Origin: Pantoea sp. At-9b
Lineage (GTDB): Bacteria > Pseudomonadota > Gammaproteobacteria > Enterobacterales > Enterobacteriaceae
Assembly (NCBI RefSeq): GCF_000175935.2
Contig: NC_014837.1
Span: 806,001-870,000 of the forward strand
Direction: 5' to 3'
DNA: 64,000 bases
Every line of letters starts with the position of its first letter. The stretch's first letter is position 1. Made by a program: the position numbers and the translations under genes. Shown in pieces: positions 8,181 to 28,581 of this stretch. The notes beneath the pieces were generated by a model. That model saw only the letters and a program-made list of their open reading frames with translations. It was not told where the DNA came from and ran no database searches.

Positions 8181-8957
8181 ATGAAAAAACAAACAATTAA
8201 ATATTTGCTGTTAATGATGATCGCGCTTCTCAGTGGCGCGGGTCATGCCGCCAGTTCGGTACTGGTGTGGCCGATTTTCCAGGTCATTGAGGCGGATCAG
8301 CAGGGCAGTGCGCTATGGCTGGAGAATCGTGGTAGCCGCCCGGTACGTTTACAAATTCGCGTGCTGGCCTGGCAGCAAGTGGCATACCGTGACCGTTATG
8401 CCGACCAAAATAACGTCATCGCCAGCCCGCCATTTGCTTCAGTGCCGCCACAACAGCGTCAGTTAATTCGTCTGATCCGCACTGGCGCACCGCCCAGCCA
8501 GGGGGAGCAGGCGTATCGCATCATCCTGGATGAAATCCCTGATGCCAACGTCCCGGCAGAAAAGAACAGCGCAGGCCTGCGGTTGCAGATGCGGTATGTG
8601 CTGCCGCTGTTTTTGGATGCACCAGGGGTCTGGACACAAACACGCAATGACCTGCATCGTGCCGCCGCCAGTGCCAGCCAGCCGCAATTGCACTGGCAGC
8701 AAGTCACCCAGCAAGGCAAACCGATGCTGCAAATCCGTAATCAGGGCGTGGTGCATGCCCGTCTGACCAATGTGTTCTGGGGCATGCAACCTGTCGCCAG
8801 TAAAGCCTCATTGACGCTAACCAAAGGTTTTCTGGGATATATCCTGCCGGGACAAACCATGCAGTTTCCCATGCCGCCAGGCCGAGCCATACCGGCTGGT
8901 GCCACACTCTATGCCCAATTGTCCGATAACGGTTCACCGGTTGCTTTAGCCCAATGA
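8181..8957 (+). CDS. Archaic pilus periplasmic chaperone (CsuC-like)
   Basis: A PapD-fold chaperone of 258 residues with an N-terminal signal peptide ending near GAGHAAS. It captures pilin subunits in the periplasm and hands them to the usher by donor-strand exchange. Visible family features are the N-terminal edge strand VLVWPIFQVIEADQQGSALWLENRG, the RQLIRLIRTG strand and YRIILDEIP. It starts three bases after the second pilin stop and overlaps the usher start (ATGA). The second domain ends in a short GSPVALAQ tail. Confidence 0.92.
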   Translation: MKKQTIKYLLLMMIALLSGAGHAASSVLVWPIFQVIEADQQGSALWLENRGSRPVRLQIRVLAWQQVAYRDRYADQNNVIASPPFASVPPQQRQLIRLIRTGAPPSQGEQAYRIILDEIPDANVPAEKNSAGLRLQMRYVLPLFLDAPGVWTQTRNDLHRAAASASQPQLHWQQVTQQGKPMLQIRNQGVVHARLTNVFWGMQPVASKASLTLTKGFLGYILPGQTMQFPMPPGRAIPAGATLYAQLSDNGSPVALAQ

Positions 8958-11311
8958 GGCCGCATGCAGTGACGCGATTGGCGCTACTGCCGGGGCTTCT
9001 GTTGTGGGGGTGTCGGGATGCAGCAGCGCAAGTGTATGACAGCCTGCCACCGCCGCGTGCGTTGCAGACTAACCAGAGCGATTACACCCTGTGGCTGACG
9101 CTCGCCGTTAATGGTCGCAATGATAACAACGTGGTGCCCGTCATTGTGCATCAAGGTGATTATCTGGTGGATGCAACGGTACTGCGGCGCAATTTTATCC
9201 CGTTAGCAGCGATGCTAAATGGTGCACAGAACGTCAATGCGTTGGCGCAGGTGCAGGTCAGTTACGACAGCGTGCATCAGATTTTGCAGCTCAAAGTGCC
9301 GGATAGCTGGCTGCCATCACAGCAGCTAACTGACTCGAAAGCGGCAGCCAGTATTGCCCTCAGTTCACCCGGAATGCTGCTGAACTACGATGCCTGGAGC
9401 GTGAAAAATGGCGAGGAAAGCAGTTATACCGCCGTCTGGCTGGAGCAGCGTTTTTTCACTGGCAATGGCTATCTTTCCAACACCGGCAGCTGGCGACAGG
9501 ACTGGCGCGGCGCTGACACAAGCGGGCAGGGCTACCTGCGTTATGACACCACCTGGAAGTACAGCGATGTTGACCGCATGGTCAGCTACCAGTTGGGGGA
9601 TGTCGTGAGCAACTCGCTGAGCTGGAGCAACTCAGTGCGACTCGGTGGCCTGCGCATCAGCCGTAGTTTTGCCGTGCGCCCGGACCTGGTGACCTACCCA
9701 TTGCTGAACTGGTCTGGCACGGCGGCGGTGCCGGGCAGTGTCGATCTGTTTATCAATGGTTATAAAACCAGCAGCAATAGCCTGAATGCCGGTCCGTGGA
9801 GCCTGACCAGCACGCCCTATATCAACGGGGCTGGTGAGGCGACGGTAGTCACCACGGACGCGTTGGGGCGCCAGGTGGAAACCACCATTCCGTTTTACGT
9901 CTCGAATCAGTTGTTGCGCAGCGGATTGAGTGATTTCGATTTCAGCGCCGGTGCGTTGCGTCAGAACTACGGTTCACGCAGTGCCGATTATGATGCCGCC
10001 GCGTTGAGTAGTTTTTATCGTTACGGTCTGAACGACCATCTGACACTGGCGTTTGAAGGGGAAGGCCGGGCAGGGCTGGTGCGGGTGGGTGCGGGGGCTG
10101 ATATGTCGGTGGCGCGCCTCGGGACACTCTCGCTCAGTGCCAGCCAGTCGCAGTCGGACCGCAGCGGCCAGCAATATTCGCTCGGTTATTCATGGTATTC
10201 GTCGCGCTTCAGCCTGAATCTGAGTCATGTGCAGCGCACGGCGGATTTCAGTGATTTGTCGGTTTATGGCACCAGTGCCAGCCTGAGTCAGCGTTCTGAG
10301 CAGGCGACCCTCAGCTTCGCGCCATTTGGCAGCCTGATCGGCACTATTGGCCTTGGCTATTTCGATATTACTGCGCATGACGGCACCCGCACCCGATTGG
10401 CAAACCTGTCCTGGAGTCGTGGTTTGTGGGGCAGCAGTAGCCTCCATCTGGCTCTGAACAAAACACTCGGATCCAGCGGCGTCAGCGGTCAATTACAGTT
10501 GATCATACCATTGGGCCAAACGGGATCGATGACCGCCAGTAGCCAGCGCACCAGTAGCGGAGAACTGGCACAGACGCTCAGTTACAGTCGCGCGGCTCCC
10601 GCCGCAGGCGGCTTTGGCTGGAACCTTGCGGCCTCGCAGGGTAACGCGGGTTATCGCCAGGCCGATCTCACCTGGAAAACCCGTTATACGGTGCTGAGTG
10701 GCGGTGTTTATGGATCACCTGGCGACCGCACCAGTTGGTTTGATGCCAGCGGTGCGCTGGTGTGGATGGATAATTCCCTGTTCGCCAGTAGCAAAGTCAA
10801 CGATGCCTTTATTGTGGTGAGCACGTCCGGCTACCGCGATATTCCGGTGCGCTATGAGAACCAGCTATTGGGCAACACTGACCGCAGCGGTCATCTGCTG
10901 GTGCCTTGGGTCAGCGCTTGGTATCCGGCGAAGCTGACCATCGACCCGCTAAATTTACCTGCCGATATTGAAACGCCAGTGGTTGAGCAACGCGTGGCTG
11001 TACGTGAAGCCAGTGGTGCGCTGGTGACTTTCCCGCTGCATAAGACACGCCCGCTGTTGCTCACGTTAGTGGACAGTGAACACCACGCGCTGCCGCCCGG
11101 CACGCTGGTAACGGAAACCCACAGCGGGCAAACGGCGCAAATGGGCTATGGCGGTGAGGTGTGGTTCGACAATGTCCCTGAGCAGAGCGACATTGCCGTC
11201 TCGCTGCCGGGTGGGGTATGTCGTCATGCCATCAGCCTGCGTGGCGTGCAGGCACAGTTCAAAATTGGCCCACTGATTTGCCCGTCCTCTACCCAGGAGA
11301 CTCAACCATGA
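8954..11311 (+). CDS. Archaic pilus outer-membrane usher (CsuD-like)
   Basis: A 785-residue fimbrial usher: signal peptide to about AAAQ, an N-terminal chaperone-binding domain, a large beta barrel from roughly residue 130 with an inserted plug (VPGSVDLFINGYKTSSNSLNAGPW...TTDALGRQVETTIPFYVS), and C-terminal domains (GYRDIPVRYENQLLGNTDRSGHLLVP) ending in a Cys-containing beta domain. It forms the secretion pore and assembly platform for the pilus. Its start overlaps the chaperone stop and its stop overlaps the tip gene start, both as ATGA, showing tight coupling. Confidence 0.94.
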   Translation: MRPHAVTRLALLPGLLLWGCRDAAAQVYDSLPPPRALQTNQSDYTLWLTLAVNGRNDNNVVPVIVHQGDYLVDATVLRRNFIPLAAMLNGAQNVNALAQVQVSYDSVHQILQLKVPDSWLPSQQLTDSKAAASIALSSPGMLLNYDAWSVKNGEESSYTAVWLEQRFFTGNGYLSNTGSWRQDWRGADTSGQGYLRYDTTWKYSDVDRMVSYQLGDVVSNSLSWSNSVRLGGLRISRSFAVRPDLVTYPLLNWSGTAAVPGSVDLFINGYKTSSNSLNAGPWSLTSTPYINGAGEATVVTTDALGRQVETTIPFYVSNQLLRSGLSDFDFSAGALRQNYGSRSADYDAAALSSFYRYGLNDHLTLAFEGEGRAGLVRVGAGADMSVARLGTLSLSASQSQSDRSGQQYSLGYSWYSSRFSLNLSHVQRTADFSDLSVYGTSASLSQRSEQATLSFAPFGSLIGTIGLGYFDITAHDGTRTRLANLSWSRGLWGSSSLHLALNKTLGSSGVSGQLQLIIPLGQTGSMTASSQRTSSGELAQTLSYSRAAPAAGGFGWNLAASQGNAGYRQADLTWKTRYTVLSGGVYGSPGDRTSWFDASGALVWMDNSLFASSKVNDAFIVVSTSGYRDIPVRYENQLLGNTDRSGHLLVPWVSAWYPAKLTIDPLNLPADIETPVVEQRVAVREASGALVTFPLHKTRPLLLTLVDSEHHALPPGTLVTETHSGQTAQMGYGGEVWFDNVPEQSDIAVSLPGGVCRHAISLRGVQAQFKIGPLICPSSTQETQP

Positions 11312-12255
11312 AACGGATTATCGCACTGCTGGCCGTGTTATTGCTGGGCTGGAGTGGGGCGGTGTTGGCCGATTGTACCGCCAGCTCCAGCAATACCAAT
11401 CTTGGCACCGTCAGTTCATTTACCCTTGCCAGCACCGCGCAGACCGTGGAAACCGGCACCGGGTTCACCTGTTCCGGCAGTTTGTTATCATTACTGAGCA
11501 CCAATACCGTGACCGCAACATTGGGCAGTTCCGCTAATGCCTCTGCCACCACACCGCGTTTATATAACAGCGCCAGCGGCAGCTATATCCCCTACACCGT
11601 TTGTGGTGACAGTGCCTGTAGTACCACGGCCAGCATTGGCAGCAGCAAAACCTGGAGTTCAACCACGCTCCTCGGGTTGCTTGGCCTGTTTAATGCCAGT
11701 GACGGTTCGCTGCCGCTGTATATCAGGAATACTGCCGGGGTGAATGTGCCGGCGGGCACGTACACCGACACACTGACACTGAACTGGAGCTACAGCATTT
11801 GCTTTGTCGGGGTATTGGGACTGTGCGTGTACACCACCGGTACGGCGACCTCGTACATTTATCTGACGCTGGTGGTAACCAATGATTGTGCCATTGATAG
11901 TGCTCCCGACGTGGATTTTGGCAGTGCCTCCTTGCCCTCCAGCTTCAGCAGCATCGCTTCCACGTTGGGTATCCGTTGCACCCTGAATGCGACTTATACC
12001 GTTAATCTCACCAGCAGTAACGCCAGCAGCGGCAATTGGCGGCAGATGTCGGCCAGTACCAGCGCCGGGACATCGTTACTGCAATATCAACTTTACCAGC
12101 CCGATGGCACGGCCTGGACCGCCAGTAATGACCTGAGTGAAACGGGCACCGGCGCGACCCAAAGCATCAACTACACGGCGCAGGTGAATCCGGACCAGAC
12201 CAATCAGCCTGCCGGAAGTTATAGCGATACGGTGACGGTGACCGTCAGTTACTGA
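11308..12255 (+). CDS. Two-domain spore coat U pilus tip adhesin (CsuE-like)
   Basis: 315 residues from the ATG at 11308, which overlaps the usher stop and follows an AGGAG site. The in-frame region back to 11218 is inside the usher and is not used. A signal peptide (about residues 1-23, ending VLADC) leads into two consecutive spore-coat-U-like domains. The first has CGDSACS and a GTYTDTLTLNWSYSICF junction. The second starts at VVTNDCAIDSAPDVDFGS and ends GSYSDTVTVTVSY. In the Csu system the two-domain last subunit sits at the pilus tip and binds surfaces through hydrophobic loops. The same role is inferred here from architecture and position. Confidence 0.88.
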   Translation: MKRIIALLAVLLLGWSGAVLADCTASSSNTNLGTVSSFTLASTAQTVETGTGFTCSGSLLSLLSTNTVTATLGSSANASATTPRLYNSASGSYIPYTVCGDSACSTTASIGSSKTWSSTTLLGLLGLFNASDGSLPLYIRNTAGVNVPAGTYTDTLTLNWSYSICFVGVLGLCVYTTGTATSYIYLTLVVTNDCAIDSAPDVDFGSASLPSSFSSIASTLGIRCTLNATYTVNLTSSNASSGNWRQMSASTSAGTSLLQYQLYQPDGTAWTASNDLSETGTGATQSINYTAQVNPDQTNQPAGSYSDTVTVTVSY

Positions 12256-12378: not shown

Positions 12379-12741
12379 ATGGAATATGAATTTTTGCGCG
12401 ATCTGACCGGTAAGGTCAAAGTGCGCATGTCGATGGACCACGAAGCCGTGGGACACTGGTTCAACGAAGAGGTGGATGAGAATTTAGCTCTGCTGGATGA
12501 CGTCGAAGCTGCCGTGCAGCAGGTGAAAGGCACCCATCATCAGTGGCAACGTGTCGGGCATGAATACACGCTATGGCTGGATGAAGAAGAGGTGATGATT
12601 CGCGCTAATCAGTTGGCGTTAGAGGATGACGGGCTGGAAGAGGGCATGACCTACTATGACGAAGAGAGCCTGGCGTTTTGCGGCGTAGAGGATTTTCTGG
12701 CGGTGATTACCGCGTATCGGCAGTTTCTGGCGGGGAAATGA
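12379..12741 (+). CDS. yacL: UPF0231 family protein YacL
   Basis: A 120-residue acidic cytoplasmic protein that aligns over its full length with E. coli YacL ([32 protein letters not shown] and the C-terminal GVEDFL). The family has no established biochemical role. The ATG follows AAGAGG. In E. coli it lies directly after acnB. Here the pilus operon has been placed between them. A bidirectional hairpin follows. Confidence 0.95.
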
Positions 12742-12793
12742 TCGTCCTGATTGCCTTAAATAAATCGCTCTATCCCTAATCTGTCAACAAAAG

Positions 12794-12815
12794 CCGCCTG
12801 AGTCAGGCGGTTTTT
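12794..12815. terminator. Terminator after yacL, shared with the convergent MFS gene
   Basis: CCGCCTGA-G-TCAGGCGG stem followed by TTTTT on the plus strand. The stop codon of the convergent minus-strand transporter gene (12803-12805) lies inside this stem, so the transporter's last codons and the yacL terminator are the same bases. Confidence 0.88.
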
Positions 12816-13981
12816 CTCTTGATGCACAAAAGTATAAAAAGAAAAGCGTAAACGCAAATAAAAGCCAAACTGGAGTATAGCGGTTTCTGTAAGCTTACTG
12901 CCCATGAGGAGAGAAAATAACCAAAGGTTAACCCTACGCCAAAAGTCATTAAATTATATGTTGAGAGAAACTTCAATATTTCATGATGATTGTCTGATTG
13001 AGATATCTTCTGCAAAATTATTTGTGGTGTAATTATTTCCCCCAAGGTAAATAGTAAAGTGATTACCAGGATGGATATAGATGAATGACAATATGGACTA
13101 GTGATAATGCTTATTAACGATAAAAAGCTACCGAATAAGATTGCGGTTACCGAATTGACTCTCCATCTTCTTATCACATTCAATACTGGAATGGTCAGCG
13201 TTATTAGCAAGATGGCATTTACAGAAAACATCAAAGGAAGGAAGGCAGCCTCATGATTATTTTTTTCCACTGAAATCGCCATGAATGCATAAATCTGTGC
13301 TTCAAAAACAAAATGTATCAGCGCAATGAGGCAGAGAAAAAATACATCGCGTGGCATACGAAATAAACTTTCCCCTTTAACTCTGGCGGGTTCCACTCCA
13401 TGTGTTTTTGATGTTAGTAGTAAAATCAGTAGTGCAGAAAGAAAAAACAATATTGCTGAGAAAAATAACAATGCGATTACATTGTATTGATTGAATAAAA
13501 AGCTTCCAAGTATAGGACCAAGTGCACCTCCAACACTGGTAGTAACTTTGATATACCCCAGCATACAAGACCGATCTTTTTTAGCCTTGATATCTTTCAG
13601 TTGCAGGGTTTTGATTAAATTTGAACTGTAGCTAATCGAAAAGCGAAATATTATGAGGCTTAGGGAAAAAAGAACTAAAGGAATTAATGCTGTTTTGTTA
13701 ATAATAATAATGCTAAGAATTGAGGGTAATCCGATAAAAAAGGCTGATACAATTTTTTTTCTTAAGTTGCGAGCCGAAAAAAAAGTCGAAAAAAAGTAGG
13801 CTAGAATGCTACCACCCATCACTCCTATTCCTGCAGCTGAAGATGCCTGAGCTGATGTCAAAGATATCCAGGCAGCGAGGTCGGTACTGATGTAAGGAAA
13901 AAATGAGAACGATGCCAACGAGGAAAATATATTGGCTAGAAGAATAAGATAATCATCACGTGATAATTTTTTATTTTTCAA
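12803..13981 (-). CDS. MFS transporter, 12-TM-like, third gene of AT-rich cassette
   Basis: A very hydrophobic 392-residue protein with about 12 predicted membrane segments and short polar loops (for example NLRKKIVSA after TM2 and SKTHGVEPARVKGESLFRMPRD as the central loop). This is the layout of a major facilitator superfamily exporter of the multidrug/SetA-like type. The only plausible start is TTG 13981, with a weak GGGA upstream. No in-frame ATG occurs before residue 55. Codon use is markedly AT-rich compared with yacL. It lies 127 bases after the acyltransferase gene and on the same strand, so it is probably cotranscribed. Export of the cassette's product is inference. Confidence 0.85.
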   Translation of the reverse strand: MKNKKLSRDDYLILLANIFSSLASFSFFPYISTDLAAWISLTSAQASSAAGIGVMGGSILAYFFSTFFSARNLRKKIVSAFFIGLPSILSIIIINKTALIPLVLFSLSLIIFRFSISYSSNLIKTLQLKDIKAKKDRSCMLGYIKVTTSVGGALGPILGSFLFNQYNVIALLFFSAILFFLSALLILLLTSKTHGVEPARVKGESLFRMPRDVFFLCLIALIHFVFEAQIYAFMAISVEKNNHEAAFLPLMFSVNAILLITLTIPVLNVIRRWRVNSVTAILFGSFLSLISIITSPYCHSSISILVITLLFTLGEIITPQIILQKISQSDNHHEILKFLSTYNLMTFGVGLTFGYFLSSWAVSLQKPLYSSLAFICVYAFLFILLCIKRKTA

Positions 13982-14108
13982 GTGAGTTTCCCAAAGGGAT
14001 TGATTTCGAATAGAGAATTCCTGGACAAGTGTAAGGAAGATCTTTTCTTATACTGTGTTTTCCATCATAGAAGTACTGTGCGAATAATGTGCCATCTTCA
14101 TCAACGTT

Positions 14109-15014
14109 TTAAAGAGGGTTGTTAATAATGAATTTATAGGCAGAACTGTTTTCATTTGGAACTCTGAGTAGCAATCGGAGTTCTTTAAAGACATTATCAG
14201 GAATGCATGCTTCAGTGCCAAATCTTTTTTTATATTGAAAAGTCCCTTTTGTCAGGAATGGTTCGCATCCCTGAAAATCAACAATGTCAATAAACTTTTC
14301 ATGGCATGACCATTCAAGAATAGAGTGATAGACAAAGTTTTGTGAGCCATCTGCTCTGTATCTATAATCACCGTCTAATACGCCAATTAATCTTGAGTTC
14401 ATCTTCTTATGCAATGTATCAATTTGGCCGACACTTCCTGCAACCCATTTTCCATTTTTGAATATTCTAAATAATATTCCTTTTTTAAATAGTGTCTCAT
14501 AAGCATCCTGACGAGGTAAACTCCTGGCTTTTTCTCCATATCTTTTTGTCATTGTTGGCGCATGCATCTTATCGTAGAAATAGAAGAAATCTTCATTGCT
14601 ATACGAGATGTCATAGGAGAAACCATCTTTATGGGAGCGAATAAACCTTTTTCTTTCTCGTGTTGACATGTTGTCAAGTATCGCATCGAAATTAATATCT
14701 GTCTTAACATACTGATGAATGCGTGAAACTCCAATTATATCATGAGCGACTTTTATTTTCTCAATGGTATCAATGTCCATCACGATAACGATTAGGTCGC
14801 AAATATATTCTGAAATGACATTTTTTACTTCCCTTGAGTTAAAGCATGAACTGCTTATGATAAGAATTTCAGAATCCTGACCATAAAATTGCTGTTCCAC
14901 ATAAGGAGATATGTAAGTTAAACCTTCTTTAACACCTAAATACAATATTCGGCTTAACCTTCCTTCTTGACAATACCCTTGCGTCAGACGCAGGTGATAT
15001 TCAGTTTGATCCAT
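14109..15014 (-). CDS. FemAB/GNAT-like acyltransferase, second gene of AT-rich cassette
   Basis: 301 residues. The C-terminal half carries the pattern of FemAB/CelD-type GNAT-fold acyltransferases: a basic helix STRERKRFIRSHKDG, FYDKMHAPTMTKRYG, FRIFKNGKWVAGSVGQIDTLH, and the closing KGTFQYKKRFG that resembles the family's GxYRFKxGFG. Members transfer amino-acyl or acyl groups, some from aminoacyl-tRNA. The donor and acceptor here are unknown. The N-terminal 110 residues look like a separate alpha/beta segment. A strong GAGGAG site precedes the ATG, 16 bases after the PLP-enzyme stop, so the two are in one operon. It could tailor the product or acylate it for self-protection. Confidence 0.7.
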   Translation of the reverse strand: MDQTEYHLRLTQGYCQEGRLSRILYLGVKEGLTYISPYVEQQFYGQDSEILIISSSCFNSREVKNVISEYICDLIVIVMDIDTIEKIKVAHDIIGVSRIHQYVKTDINFDAILDNMSTRERKRFIRSHKDGFSYDISYSNEDFFYFYDKMHAPTMTKRYGEKARSLPRQDAYETLFKKGILFRIFKNGKWVAGSVGQIDTLHKKMNSRLIGVLDGDYRYRADGSQNFVYHSILEWSCHEKFIDIVDFQGCEPFLTKGTFQYKKRFGTEACIPDNVFKELRLLLRVPNENSSAYKFIINNPL

Positions 15015-15030
15015 TCCTAAAACTCCTCAA

Positions 15031-16392
15031 TCAGATATAGTTCATCATTTGGACTTCATTCATGACCGAAATGTAGTCATCTGGTCCAAGGCTTTCATAA
15101 TCACATGAGGAGTAATATCCAGTACCATGTATAACAAAATTACTCATATCCTCCCTGATCAGGTTACGATCAATAGCGTTCATAGCGCCTGTCAAGGCCA
15201 TAATCAGTGACCATTCTTTGACATTTTTAGCGTCAGCTACCAACGAGACACCTGCGTTACACAGCATCTCGCGAATTAATGCATAACGCTCCAGGCATTC
15301 CAGAAGCGACACAACAACACCATTTCCACCGTATGTATTAATAATGTCTGTCATTTCATGTACTGTAGCGGGTTTATGACTATAAAATGTTTGCTCTAGA
15401 ATTTCTTTAATACTTGAGGTACGGAAAGGATAGTTTTTTAAATTACTCTGATGGTAATAACCATCCTTACTTAAAGAGTAAATGTTTTTCGGAGACTCAA
15501 ATGACCCTGTTAAAAGAAAGTCTACCATGTCGCTTGTTGCAAGGTGTTGTACCAATAAAAACGCTGGCATTTGGGTTTTACAACCTAGGTCATTAAGTCT
15601 ATCAACGCCCGTTTTATAACCCAAGAATCCATAGGCGCTGGAAACTGAATGTACGTGAACGCATTTATTATTTTCAAGTTCACCAAATTCATAATCATAA
15701 AAAGCACGAATTTGGTCAGCAAAGCGATAGTTTTCTAGTTTAAGTGAGTGCCATAGTTTAGTGTGGCTTTTGTTTTTATCATTGAATCTTTCTTTGAATT
15801 TATTTCCAATATCTTTTACTTTCTCAGGGCTATCCGTATCGAGTACAAATGCTGGATTGAGGTTTTTCAGATATTTATCTGAAGATAACTCTGAAACTCT
15901 CAGTTTTTCTTTTGTATCTTTAGGTGTCAGAGTAATTATTCTTAATTCTTCTGGTGAGACTAAATCGCACTTAATTGCTCTTAAAACGGCATCCCTTAAT
16001 GCAATTGCCTTATTTCCCGATGATGGAGAAAAAACAATAATTTTCTCATGTTTCTCTCTTATGTGGCTGACTGCTCTGGCGATCAGTAGCGTAGCTGCAA
16101 ATGTTTTTACCGTGTTGGTTTCGGGGTTTTTCATTAAATTAAATAAACTAATTTCTCTTCCTTTGTACTTTCCAATGCTGACTATGGAGGCCTTTGTTGG
16201 TTCAAGAAAAGATATTAATTTCTCATCCAGTGCAGGGATTTTAAAATCAGGGTCAAATGTGTTAGGATAACCTGAAAAACCATTCTTAATAGTCGATGAA
16301 AATAACTCTTCTGAGCTTAATAGTAGATTGTAGTATCGCTCTACAAGATTATCAGAATTGATCAGTGCTTCTGTGAATTTTATTGATTTCAT
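15031..16392 (-). CDS. Threonine-synthase-like fold-type II PLP enzyme, first gene of AT-rich cassette
   Basis: 453 residues, not an E. coli orthologue. The order of motifs follows long-form threonine synthases and other fold-type II PLP enzymes. NPETNTVKTFAA is the position of the PLP-lysine motif (NPTGSxKDRxA in the family). FSPSSGNKAIAL is the phosphate-binding S-S/T-G-N loop. HLATSDMVDFLLTGSF...NLKNYPFR resembles the NANDxxxRFLxxG...NxxR region. GGNGVVVSL and HGTGYY occupy the later glycine-rich positions. The usual Asp after the PLP lysine is Thr here, which suggests altered chemistry. AAGGA precedes the ATG. It may build or break a non-protein amino acid, but that is inference. Confidence 0.65.
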   Translation of the reverse strand: MKSIKFTEALINSDNLVERYYNLLLSSEELFSSTIKNGFSGYPNTFDPDFKIPALDEKLISFLEPTKASIVSIGKYKGREISLFNLMKNPETNTVKTFAATLLIARAVSHIREKHEKIIVFSPSSGNKAIALRDAVLRAIKCDLVSPEELRIITLTPKDTKEKLRVSELSSDKYLKNLNPAFVLDTDSPEKVKDIGNKFKERFNDKNKSHTKLWHSLKLENYRFADQIRAFYDYEFGELENNKCVHVHSVSSAYGFLGYKTGVDRLNDLGCKTQMPAFLLVQHLATSDMVDFLLTGSFESPKNIYSLSKDGYYHQSNLKNYPFRTSSIKEILEQTFYSHKPATVHEMTDIINTYGGNGVVVSLLECLERYALIREMLCNAGVSLVADAKNVKEWSLIMALTGAMNAIDRNLIREDMSNFVIHGTGYYSSCDYESLGPDDYISVMNEVQMMNYI

Positions 16393-16462
16393 TAAACATC
16401 CTTGTTCTGACAGAACTATGGTTATTTTTAGGTTGCGATTTGGTTATTACCGATGAATTGTA

Positions 16463-16492
16463 TTATTAACGTTTTTCTTAATTGAAAGTCAA
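16463..16492 (-). promoter_or_regulatory. Putative promoter of the AT-rich cassette
   Basis: On the minus strand: -35 TTGACT (16492-16487), an 18-base spacer and -10 TAATAA (16468-16463), giving a 5' leader of about 60 bases before the ATG at 16392. The -10 is imperfect. Confidence 0.4.
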
Positions 16493-16512
16493 TAGGGTTG
16501 AGTTTAATTTTT

Positions 16513-16528
16513 CTATACCAAAGTATAG
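16513..16528. promoter_or_regulatory. Inverted repeat CTATAC-CAAA-GTATAG, operator candidate
   Basis: Perfect 6-bp arms around a 4-base centre, about 20 bases upstream of the predicted -35 of the cassette. This is a plausible position for a regulator. No regulator gene is present in the cassette. Confidence 0.35.
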
Positions 16529-16925
16529 TTTTGATTTTTTTGAAAATAAATCAGAAGGATAGGGGTGTTGTTGTAAGTGAATGGAGTGAGCAGTTAACGA
16601 CAATCTATGTGTTTAAATACCCATAATGGGTTAATCTATATTGAGTGGGAATGGTATGGTTGAAAATAATAAGGTTGTGAATTTATTTTGTGCGAATTAT
16701 GAGGTGGCTATTAATGATTCAGTGTGAGAGTCGTGAGGAGAAGAATGCTGGATGACTTAGATAAAATATAAAGAATGATGTTGTCCCGCATGAGAGCGTT
16801 AGCGAATGTATTTTTCCGGAAAATGAATTTTCGCGACTTTTCAATTCAAGGCAGTTGTAAATAAAGCGATAGCCGGTGGTAAAGAATCCGGTAGTGTCCC
16901 AGACTCATTACCAGATATTATTTTA

Positions 16926-17969
16926 TTAAACCGTCGCAACCGGCGTAGCAGGCGATCCCACTGCGCCCGGCAGCCGCAGCGGCGGTGCGGTCAGCAGAAA
17001 TGCATGGCGCTGATGGTGCGCCAGCCAATCTGCCAGCGGACTCAGCAACCACAGCTCACCGAGATACACCCCCAGCCGGAACAGGCAGAGATCATGCAGC
17101 GGGTGCGACGGATAAAAATCATCGTTCAACGGTCGTGCCGGTAGTATCTCCACTGCCGGATTGTCGGCAATCAGCGCCACAACTCCGCTTTCTACAATCC
17201 ACTGCCGCAATTGCGCATCGCTGCCGTCCAACCCGGCAAAGTGGCTGTTAAGGAAAGTCATATCCGGCTCGCCTTGCATGGCCAGAATGGCTTCATCCAT
17301 GCCGGTACGGAAACACACCAGGTCACCCGGGCGCACTTCAATGCCGTCAGCCTGTAAAATCTGTTGCAGATGCGTATAGCCAAAAGCAAAACGCTCGCTG
17401 CCAAAGTGGCGTTTGATATCGATCATCACCGCCCGTCCCTGGATGCCGTGTTGCGCCATATGTTCGATACCCAGCACTTTTGCCCCCAGATGGCTACCGT
17501 GGTGGCAGCCACAGCCGGCGCGATAGTCAGTTTCACCGACAATATCGACATTCGCCTTGTAGCCGTTGTAGAACACCATTTCCGGCTCGCCATTGGCGTT
17601 GACATCAAACCATTGGCCCATATGTGCGAGGCTGTCCCACTGGGTGGAGTATTGCAGTGCCAGCGTCACGGTGTCGTCACAAATCACGTCACTCAACTGG
17701 GGATTATCACGCGACAGCGGATAGGTCATATTGGCGTGCTCGCCGCGCCGTGTGGCATTGAGCTGCGGTGGTGGACGACGCGGATTCATTGCCGTGCCGC
17801 CCGGTAAATCGAGCGGCAAACTCAGGCAGAAGGTCTCGCCGGTCTGCACTTCTGCCACGCCCTCCCGTACTTTTTGCGGCGTCAGCAGATTGAGACGACC
17901 TAACTGGTCATCGGCACCGAAATCGCCCCAAGTGGAGTGTGACGGGCGTTGTTTCCAGCGACTATTCAT
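16926..17969 (-). CDS. Cyclase-family (PF04199-type) metal-dependent hydrolase
   Basis: 347 residues. The family includes kynurenine formamidase and polyketide-cyclase-like hydrolases that use a His/Asp metal site. Visible motifs are TQWDSLAHMGQWF, the Cys/His-rich GCGCHHGSHLGAKVLGIE, and RAVMIDIKRHFG. The start ATG overlaps the upstream transporter stop as ATGA and follows GAGGAGA. It is the last gene of a six-gene leftward unit for sugar-acid or hydroxy-acid use, so a lactone, amide or ester substrate is plausible. This is inferred from context, not from the sequence. Confidence 0.8.
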   Translation of the reverse strand: MNSRWKQRPSHSTWGDFGADDQLGRLNLLTPQKVREGVAEVQTGETFCLSLPLDLPGGTAMNPRRPPPQLNATRRGEHANMTYPLSRDNPQLSDVICDDTVTLALQYSTQWDSLAHMGQWFDVNANGEPEMVFYNGYKANVDIVGETDYRAGCGCHHGSHLGAKVLGIEHMAQHGIQGRAVMIDIKRHFGSERFAFGYTHLQQILQADGIEVRPGDLVCFRTGMDEAILAMQGEPDMTFLNSHFAGLDGSDAQLRQWIVESGVVALIADNPAVEILPARPLNDDFYPSHPLHDLCLFRLGVYLGELWLLSPLADWLAHHQRHAFLLTAPPLRLPGAVGSPATPVATV

Positions 17970-27235: not shown

Positions 27236-28552
27236 TTATACAAAATGATAGCGTTCTGAGTGGTATTTCGTTAACGGGACGTGCAGGGCTGCCAGCGTTT
27301 TTTCAATTTCATCCATCATTCTGTTCGGGCCGCAGATGAAATATTCATGTTGTTCATAGGGCGCTGGGATATAACGTTGTATCAGTTCACTGTTAATGAA
27401 ACCCGTTTCTCCCGTCCATTCTTTCGGGGGCTGTTCAAGAACATGTATGACCTGTAAATTAATCCTGTCTGACAATGTTTCCAGTTCTTCTCTGAAGGTA
27501 ATGCCATCCCAGTTTTTATTACCATATATCAGTATTATTGGACGTTTATCACCGTGATCGGCAAACGTTCGGATGATACTCATCATCGGGGTAATACCAA
27601 TCCCTCCGGCAATTAACACATGCATGTCCGCCGGATTACCTACAGTGAATGCGCCATAGGGGCCATCAATATAAACCCGCTTACCCGCAGTCACATTTCT
27701 GATCTTTCGGGTGTAATCGCCAGCATCTTGTATGGTCATTTCAATCGTCTCTTTCGCCATTTCCGCACTGGATGAAAAAGAGAAAGGATGAGACGTCAAT
27801 TTGAAAGGACTTCCCCAGACGTTCAGCCAGCCAAACTGACCAGGGGCAAAAGGAAAACCTGCATGACCAATAGGTTGCATCACCAACGTGGTGCTGCCTC
27901 CCCGTTCATTGCGCGTTGCGATGACCTGGTAGGGTTTTCGCAACATCAGAAAAGGCCGGACGATGCGGGTATAAATCAGCAGGCAGCACCAGAGTATGGC
28001 TAATCCTGTCCACAAGGCGCGTTTTAAGGGCGCATCTAAATAGAACCCCCAGGCAAATGTATGAAGTAGACCGGCACCAATCACCAGAACTGCCAGAATA
28101 ATATGAGTATAATGCCAAACCTCGTAGCTAATTTTGAGTTTCACACGCCACAGTGCCATCACCATTAAGGCAATAAGCGAATAGGTAGATATTGCCGCGA
28201 AGCGTGCCCGCCACGGGGCCTCAATAAAATTAAGCAGCGCCAGTCTTTCCGGTCGTAAAATAAAAAGGATGACAGGATGGGCAATAATCAGGGCCAGGGC
28301 TATAAAAGATATTTGTTTGTGAAAATGATAAATAATATCTTCCCCCCACGGACGTGTCACGGCACGAAAGCGAGCAGTAAGACCCACCTGTAATCCAAGA
28401 ATGGCCAGACCAGCATAACCTGCCGCAGCGGAAAACTCTGTCCAGAAATCCCTGGAGGGTGGGAGTGGACCGATCAGAAGAACAAATAATGGGCCTGCAG
28501 TGAAAAATAGATAGAACAATACCCAGAGGGTATTTCGTGTGAAAGTGTTCAT
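27236..28552 (-). CDS. Ferric-reductase-like membrane flavocytochrome
   Basis: 438 residues from ATG 28552, six bases inside an in-frame GTG. The N-terminal half has about six membrane spans carrying two H-x13-H pairs (H78/H92 and H150/H164), the spacing expected for two stacked b-type hemes in the FRE/NOX family. The C-terminal half is a ferredoxin-NADP reductase-type module with the FAD motif HPFSFSS, the NAD(P) motif GGIGITPMM and CGPNRMM near the end. It should move electrons from NAD(P)H across the inner membrane, for example to ferric iron. The acceptor is not known. It probably forms an operon with the 31-residue membrane peptide downstream. Confidence 0.9.
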   Translation of the reverse strand: MNTFTRNTLWVLFYLFFTAGPLFVLLIGPLPPSRDFWTEFSAAAGYAGLAILGLQVGLTARFRAVTRPWGEDIIYHFHKQISFIALALIIAHPVILFILRPERLALLNFIEAPWRARFAAISTYSLIALMVMALWRVKLKISYEVWHYTHIILAVLVIGAGLLHTFAWGFYLDAPLKRALWTGLAILWCCLLIYTRIVRPFLMLRKPYQVIATRNERGGSTTLVMQPIGHAGFPFAPGQFGWLNVWGSPFKLTSHPFSFSSSAEMAKETIEMTIQDAGDYTRKIRNVTAGKRVYIDGPYGAFTVGNPADMHVLIAGGIGITPMMSIIRTFADHGDKRPIILIYGNKNWDGITFREELETLSDRINLQVIHVLEQPPKEWTGETGFINSELIQRYIPAPYEQHEYFICGPNRMMDEIEKTLAALHVPLTKYHSERYHFV

Positions 28553-28581
28553 GTCCACAACCCCGTTCAGAGTTATTACGG

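Follow-up and report, generated by a model that had tools for sequence, protein, structure and literature searches.

A block of three genes in Pantoea sp. At-9b, lying in the 64,000-nucleotide stretch analysed here (NC_014837.1, positions 806,001 to 870,000; hereafter the window), can be read with a probability of about 0.5 as a horizontally acquired pathway for forming a non-protein amino acid, conjugating it through a tRNA-dependent amide bond and exporting the product. The genes encode, in reading order and all on one strand, a DUF6002 protein, a FemX-like transferase and a transporter of the major facilitator superfamily (MFS) (Table 1). Gene content, order and linkage, the empty site in congeners and the conserved residues were observed directly, and the chemistry that we infer would run as follows. 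DUF6002, acting as a fold-type-II pyridoxal phosphate (PLP) enzyme of the threonine-synthase kind, would make the non-protein amino acid from an activated amino acid of primary metabolism, e.g. O-phosphohomoserine, O-phosphoserine or O-acetylserine; because the cassette has no activating enzyme, this substrate would have to be activated by the host if the three genes suffice. The FemX-like protein would then link it, by amide formation, to an amino acid supplied by aminoacyl-tRNA to give a dipeptide-like product, a step modelled on DhpH-C in the dehydrophos pathway, in which an acyl group instead is less likely. Finally, the MFS protein would export this product.

The same gene order is found in other bacteria. 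Among 398 Pseudomonas genomes, DUF6002 and a FemX-like gene (expectation value, E, up to 1e-15) occur in an identical set of nine, in all of which the two genes are adjacent and an MFS gene comes next. An earlier note on this DNA had proposed a module for biosynthesis, modification and export, to be abandoned if the three genes never co-occurred elsewhere; the nine genomes contradict that condition, and their gene order, the biosynthetic settings in Actinomycetota and the probable acquisition of the insert all support such a module. The order DUF6002-FemX-MFS was found at 12 distinct Pseudomonas loci (L002, identical to L128, L003-L007 and L122-L127), and the nine cassettes measured are AT-rich, with a guanine-plus-cytosine (GC) content of 0.46-0.53 vs 0.58-0.60 in their flanks. 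In one genome (G086) the FemX-like match runs across a stop codon, the open reading frame (ORF) there (L007) being of 346 residues.

A search with the single window protein gave 51 stretches, none of them confirmed, and a search with a DUF6002 alignment (A1, 30 of the 120 listed matches among 278 found) reached 125 relatives; the analysis went on with the 80 best loci. Locus counts refer to the 78 of these with a DUF6002 gene call in the merged gene set; L061, which holds a FemX-like gene, and L071 were dropped. A FemX-like gene is present in 27 of the 78 (six Pseudomonas and 21 Actinomycetota), as the immediate same-strand neighbour in 21, and MFS genes of three clusters occur in 24/27 loci with the FemX-like gene vs 3/51 without it. 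Within Actinomycetota the corresponding numbers are 18/21 and 3/51 (Fisher p 4e-11), a value that is descriptive only because the clusters (11, 19 and 20, one representative of each checked by Pfam) were picked after the neighbourhoods had been viewed, the loci are interrelated, the gene lies close to a contig end in several cases and MFS genes of other types were left out. In the protein database, 23 of the 68 FemX-like matches with a listed contig pair with a DUF6002 match on a contig of equal size, size being used as a proxy for identity of the contig; the comparison covered 53 of the 120 listed DUF6002 matches, and two of the 23 share one DUF6002 contig. Such pairs occur by this proxy in Streptomyces cucumeris and Anaerobacillus, and the locus tags of the pair in Actinoalloteichus are consecutive (FHR81_002059/002060).

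The three-gene block is most simply a horizontally acquired insert, because its base composition deviates and its site is empty in congeners. From 12803 to 16392 the GC content is 0.358 vs 0.558 in the remainder of the window (35-36% in each gene), and third-position GC is 0.31-0.33 vs 0.646 +/- 0.055 in 41 other window ORFs of at least 200 residues, mechanically called and possibly including spurious ones (z -5.7 to -6.1). The yacL gene, of the UPF0231 family, which flanks the cassette on the left, was found in 57 genomes of the genus out of 60, a count that includes the genome of the window. Of 29 congener loci, 10 have 66-294 bases, and no part of the cassette, between yacL and the region at 16925, the other 19 have a different or lost right flank, and cassette DNA was found at none of the 29 (each about 3.4 kb around yacL). 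DUF6002 was detected in 1/61 genomes of the genus, 1/394 of the order and 1/369 of the class, every match being the window itself; the protein database search also lists members in a metagenome-assembled genome of Pantoea stewartii and in Aliivibrio fischeri. Megablast of positions 12700-17000 against 20,395 Escherichia coli records and tblastn against plasmids gave no matches, and the 64 kb contain no tRNA or transfer-messenger RNA gene. These results agree with the earlier description of three same-strand, AT-rich genes absent from the E. coli arrangement and lying beside yacL, and support only in part the 'sugar-acid locus' said to follow on the right, since the neighbours there are a PF04199 cyclase gene and two MFS genes. 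In the congener whose yacL is closest (94% identity), an unrelated ORF of 327 residues without a Pfam match (L131:1964-2947) directly follows yacL, and this site may be a variable one.

The first gene product matches PF19465 with 487.6 bits (gathering cut-off 25; residues 14-446 on model positions 3-436 of 447), and its K96 is invariant in all 30 rows chosen for A1. HHalign was used to compare DUF6002 with three threonine-synthase sets drawn from 30 loci, and all three alignments, each of low probability, show two correspondences: K96 is matched to the lysine in the FKDR/KDFG motif of the synthases, and the SSGN loop to their STGN/TSGD loop. The lysine of this synthase motif binds PLP. DUF6002 is likely to be PLP-enzyme-like and a very distant relative of threonine synthase, with K96 as its PLP lysine. 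Family scores stay far from membership: TIGR00260, with a cut-off of 167.1 bits, is matched by one of the 30 A1 members (E 0.0093), no NCBIfam cut-off is approached, and the sole synthase match of the window protein is the threonine synthase model PRK06450 (11.5 bits, E 0.097). Thus the likeness to threonine synthase noted earlier stands as a remote one, while the assignment to that family gives way to DUF6002. Of the 87 positions with at least 95% conservation among the other members, the window protein retains 82 (five departures, rank 7 of 119), and by these positions the gene does not look like a relic, the second outcome that had been set beforehand to undo the proposal. In the tree it falls in a supported group with proteins from Pseudomonas, Actinoalloteichus and Streptomyces cucumeris, which suggests transfer between phyla, although the tree does not force it.

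The transferase has 70 matches, itself included, among 5.8 billion proteins. An alignment of 24 of these with eight locus genes (A2, 32 rows) was used as a profile against solved chains and found 9wqy (E 0.0046) and 9wqw (E 0.01), annotated as 'aminoacyl-tRNA-dependent peptide synthase', and FemX structures (E 0.08-0.14). Because these nearest, though weak, solved matches are aminoacyl-tRNA-dependent peptide synthases and FemX, aminoacyl transfer seems somewhat more likely than acyl transfer. K262 of the window protein (K260 of P0125, an intact homologue from Pseudomonas sp. C1C7) is invariant in 32/32 rows, and a glutamate conserved in 31/32 lies 11 residues before it. A key lysine is described for FemX (K305) and DhpH-C (K329) in a passage of PMC12945691; since the HMMER alignment stops short of K262, this residue can be equated with it only by spacing. 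At E up to 1, eight of the 32 rows match PF13480 Acetyltransf_6 (best 4.1e-9) and three match PF04339 FemAB_like (best 0.0016), and the window protein, which matches no FemAB Pfam model, reaches E 0.0013 with TIGR03019 FemAB, far below the cut-off. Of the 'FemAB/GNAT-like acyltransferase' first proposed, the FemX/FemAB likeness is thus retained, the acyl donor is the less likely one, and an early stop had been missed.

This in-frame stop, at 14109-14111, leaves an ORF of 301 residues, whereas eight intact homologues have 328-358. Beyond it the same frame is open for 45 codons, encodes a homologue-like C-terminus and runs 11 bases into the MFS reading frame before it ends; the Pseudomonas arrangement is similar, with an 8-base overlap of transferase and MFS genes at two of the three loci measured, the third having a doubtful start. 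A partial relative of 193 residues (P0122), 97% identical and encoded on a public contig of 2,890 bases, has no stop at that point, so intact copies exist. The lost segment carries three near-invariant residues downstream of the invariant lysine and accounts for three of the five departures of the window protein at 50 positions conserved to at least 95%.

The third gene product matches PF07690 (52.2 bits, cut-off 33.4), as expected for the MFS exporter proposed at the outset, and the pump is the least conserved cassette member. With one Pseudomonas partner it shares a partial-length BLASTP match of 29% identity. Two tandem MFS copies lie downstream of the FemX-like gene at two Pseudomonas loci (L004 and L126).

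In Actinomycetota, DUF6002 genes lie among genes for non-ribosomal peptide synthetases (NRPS), ketosynthases and PanD-like, ComD/ComE-like, asparagine-synthase-like, LLM and TauD-like proteins, labels that rest on one representative per cluster; an NRPS-type gene is found in 37/78 loci. The 72 Actinomycetota loci comprise 21 with a FemX-like gene, 26 with a LanB-like gene and 25 with neither. By cluster membership the LanB-like gene occurs in 26/51 loci without the FemX-like cluster vs 0/21 with it, counts that are inflated by related clusters. All 27 LanB-like proteins match Lant_dehydr_N, and in their alignment (A3) E513/H515 and E753/R755 are invariant, recalling E575/H577 and E813/R815 of BhaB7 by spacing only. 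The described LanB enzymes and peptide aminoacyl-tRNA ligases (PEARLs) use charged tRNA, and this hints at a common logic in which DUF6002 is paired with either of two types of tRNA-dependent enzyme. A broader proposal is tentative: DUF6002 would be an undescribed branch of PLP enzymes making a reactive non-protein amino acid that is usually passed to a charged-tRNA enzyme of FemX-like or LanB-like type, and the three-gene block would count as one of the smallest natural-product pathways that are complete and tRNA-dependent, occurring in Pseudomonadota, Bacillota and Actinomycetota, its spread probably due to transfer.

Several known systems invite comparison. The dehydrophos pathway (DhpH, DhpK), like the one proposed for the cassette, unites a PLP enzyme and amide-forming enzymes that are FemX-like and depend on aminoacyl-tRNA; its product is a small peptide antibiotic. 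It differs in that DhpH reportedly has its PLP domain fused to the FemX-like domain, the former (DhpH-N) being said to belong to another PLP fold, whereas the cassette has separate genes, three in all, and a PLP-like protein resembling threonine synthase. The threonine-synthase-like enzymes of the rhizocticin type are ones that we take to be comparable to DUF6002. The motif of phosphoenolpyruvate (PEP) mutase is EDKX(4-6)NS; it is absent from window ORFs with starts at 5-27 kb, which therefore give no sign of a phosphonate, and it is present in 2/80 loci (L058 and L069), so a phosphonate reading was rejected. DhpH-C and DhpK use aminoacyl-tRNA, as stated in a passage of PMC12945691. VlmA, PacB, Orf11 and FemABX are transferases of the GNAT fold that depend on aminoacyl-tRNA; the window transferase is weakly related to FemX by sequence and may share their donor type, but unlike the FemABX type it fits no FemAB model of Pfam. 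PEARLs and LanB-like enzymes, which accompany DUF6002 in 26/72 Actinomycetota loci, stand there beside NRPS and ketosynthase genes and are absent from the window.

A number of results weigh against the three-step pathway. HHalign probabilities for DUF6002 against the three threonine-synthase sets were 37, 4.9 and 0.1%, indicating a weak relation, and searches of PDB sequences with DUF6002 gave zero matches. The branch of the window protein is long (1.13 vs a median of 0.24) and its composition is flagged as unusual. All solved-chain matches of A2 are weak (E 0.005-0.14), and PF13480, which some A2 rows match, is a family not restricted to aminoacyl-tRNA donors. The stop removes about 45 conserved residues; because the transferase is truncated, the window copy may be impaired and its activity is uncertain. 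Profiles built from the Pseudomonas and the Amycolatopsis-type MFS clusters do not find the window MFS protein at E 1e-3. In addition, the 25 Actinomycetota loci with neither tRNA-type partner speak against a strict rule of pairing, and at L072 a LanB-like gene is accompanied by a FemX-like fragment of 167 residues at the locus end (E 1.6e-40), which was left out by the clustering, so that the locus was counted as LanB only.

The stop also raises the quite possible alternative that the cassette is decaying here, the transferase being dead and the PLP enzyme and pump unused. The conserved continuation is still legible behind the stop, the eight full-length homologues and the uninterrupted P0122 give the intact state, and the DUF6002 branch is long; yet DUF6002 keeps nearly all its conserved positions, K96 included, the MFS frame is open, three of the five departures of the transferase sit in the lost segment behind the invariant lysine, and a single stop could be an assembly error or strain-specific. 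Rather unlikely is the same pathway with an acyl-CoA-dependent transferase, which would N-acylate the amino acid to a lipid-like or self-protecting form. The PF13480 and PF04339 matches within A2 and the low TIGR03019 match of the window protein suit such an enzyme, but the best solved relatives, though weak, depend on aminoacyl-tRNA, an invariant lysine of the family corresponds by spacing to the one that FemX and DhpH-C use, and many DUF6002 loci without a FemX-like gene have a LanB-like gene, of a family whose described members use aminoacyl-tRNA.

That DUF6002 is cysteate-synthase-like and its products are sulfonates, with PanD-like and ComD/ComE-like neighbours acting on cysteate or sulfopyruvate, appears improbable. 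PanD-like genes occur in 20, ComE-like in 17 and ComD-like in 14 of the 78 loci, one representative of each matches the sulfopyruvate decarboxylase models TIGR03846 or TIGR03845 below the cut-off, and the rarity of the PEP mutase motif also favours sulfonates. The ComE-like representative, however, scores higher with a phosphonopyruvate decarboxylase model, and its best solved match is 9iz3_B, given as RhiF of rhizocticin in a passage of PMC12141560; PanD may just make beta-alanine, cysteate synthase is absent among the nine families matched by A1 members, and both the PanD-like and the ComD/ComE-like partners are missing from the three-gene form. Least probable by far is a role in cell-wall modification and resistance, in which the FemX-like protein would attach the product of DUF6002 to peptidoglycan while the MFS protein served as a drug efflux pump: the weak FemX relation agrees with it, but DUF6002 often adjoins NRPS, ketosynthase and other biosynthetic genes, and the three proteins have no PADLOC match. 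For the latter reason a defence-system reading was rejected as well.

Among 5.39 million open-access papers none names DUF6002 or PF19465, and searches by function, over titles and the starts of abstracts, found no description of this cassette; most subscription papers lie outside this coverage. DUF6002 is an unstudied family. In its three-gene form the pathway would come down to a single enzyme for amino-acid formation, a second for joining and a pump, so that tRNA and two purified proteins would be enough to test the chemistry of the family. A genuine pairing with aminoacyl-tRNA-dependent enzymes would offer a handle for mining genomes for a class of small peptide products.

Table 1. Features of the cassette and its surroundings (window positions)
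Feature	Position	Strand	Remarks
DUF6002 (PF19465) gene	15031-16392	minus	453 residues; first gene of the block; PF19465 match; K96 likely PLP lysine
FemX/FemAB-like transferase gene	14109-15014	minus	301 residues as ORF, with in-frame stop; K262 candidate catalytic lysine
Continuation of transferase frame past the stop	13971-14108	minus	45 codons and a second stop; resembles the conserved C-terminus of homologues
MFS transporter gene	12803-13981	minus	392 residues; TTG start; PF07690 match; presumed exporter
AT-rich stretch from yacL to cyclase gene	12742-16925		most simply an acquired insert; empty site in congeners
Terminator-like hairpin	12794-12810		overlaps 3' end of MFS gene; pattern only, number found not above chance

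Further observations concern the Actinomycetota loci and the rest of the window. The LanB-like proteins of L014, L016 and 24 other Actinomycetota loci lie near DUF6002, NRPS and ketosynthase genes, and 6/27 LanB-like proteins also match a thioesterase domain; it is possible that those near DUF6002 are PEARL-like enzymes acting on small molecules. The two loci with a PEP-mutase-motif protein (L058:6053-6928 and L069:5684-6613) also have a single-chain decarboxylase-like gene and are probable phosphonate clusters containing DUF6002. A recurrent block (L010:9366-11814, L012 and L024) consists of ComE-like, DUF6002 and PanD-like genes and one for a protein of 362-370 residues without a Pfam match, with a ComD-like gene also in the L010 and L012 blocks. 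Against PDB sequences, a 363-residue partner gave only chance-like kinase matches, and a 444-residue partner could not be named either. Within the window, an ORF outside the cassette (27236-28558, minus strand) has a third-position GC of 0.461, low relative to the window mean, and immediately left of yacL (8954-12255) lie usher and spore-coat-U-domain genes forming an operon of the chaperone-usher type.

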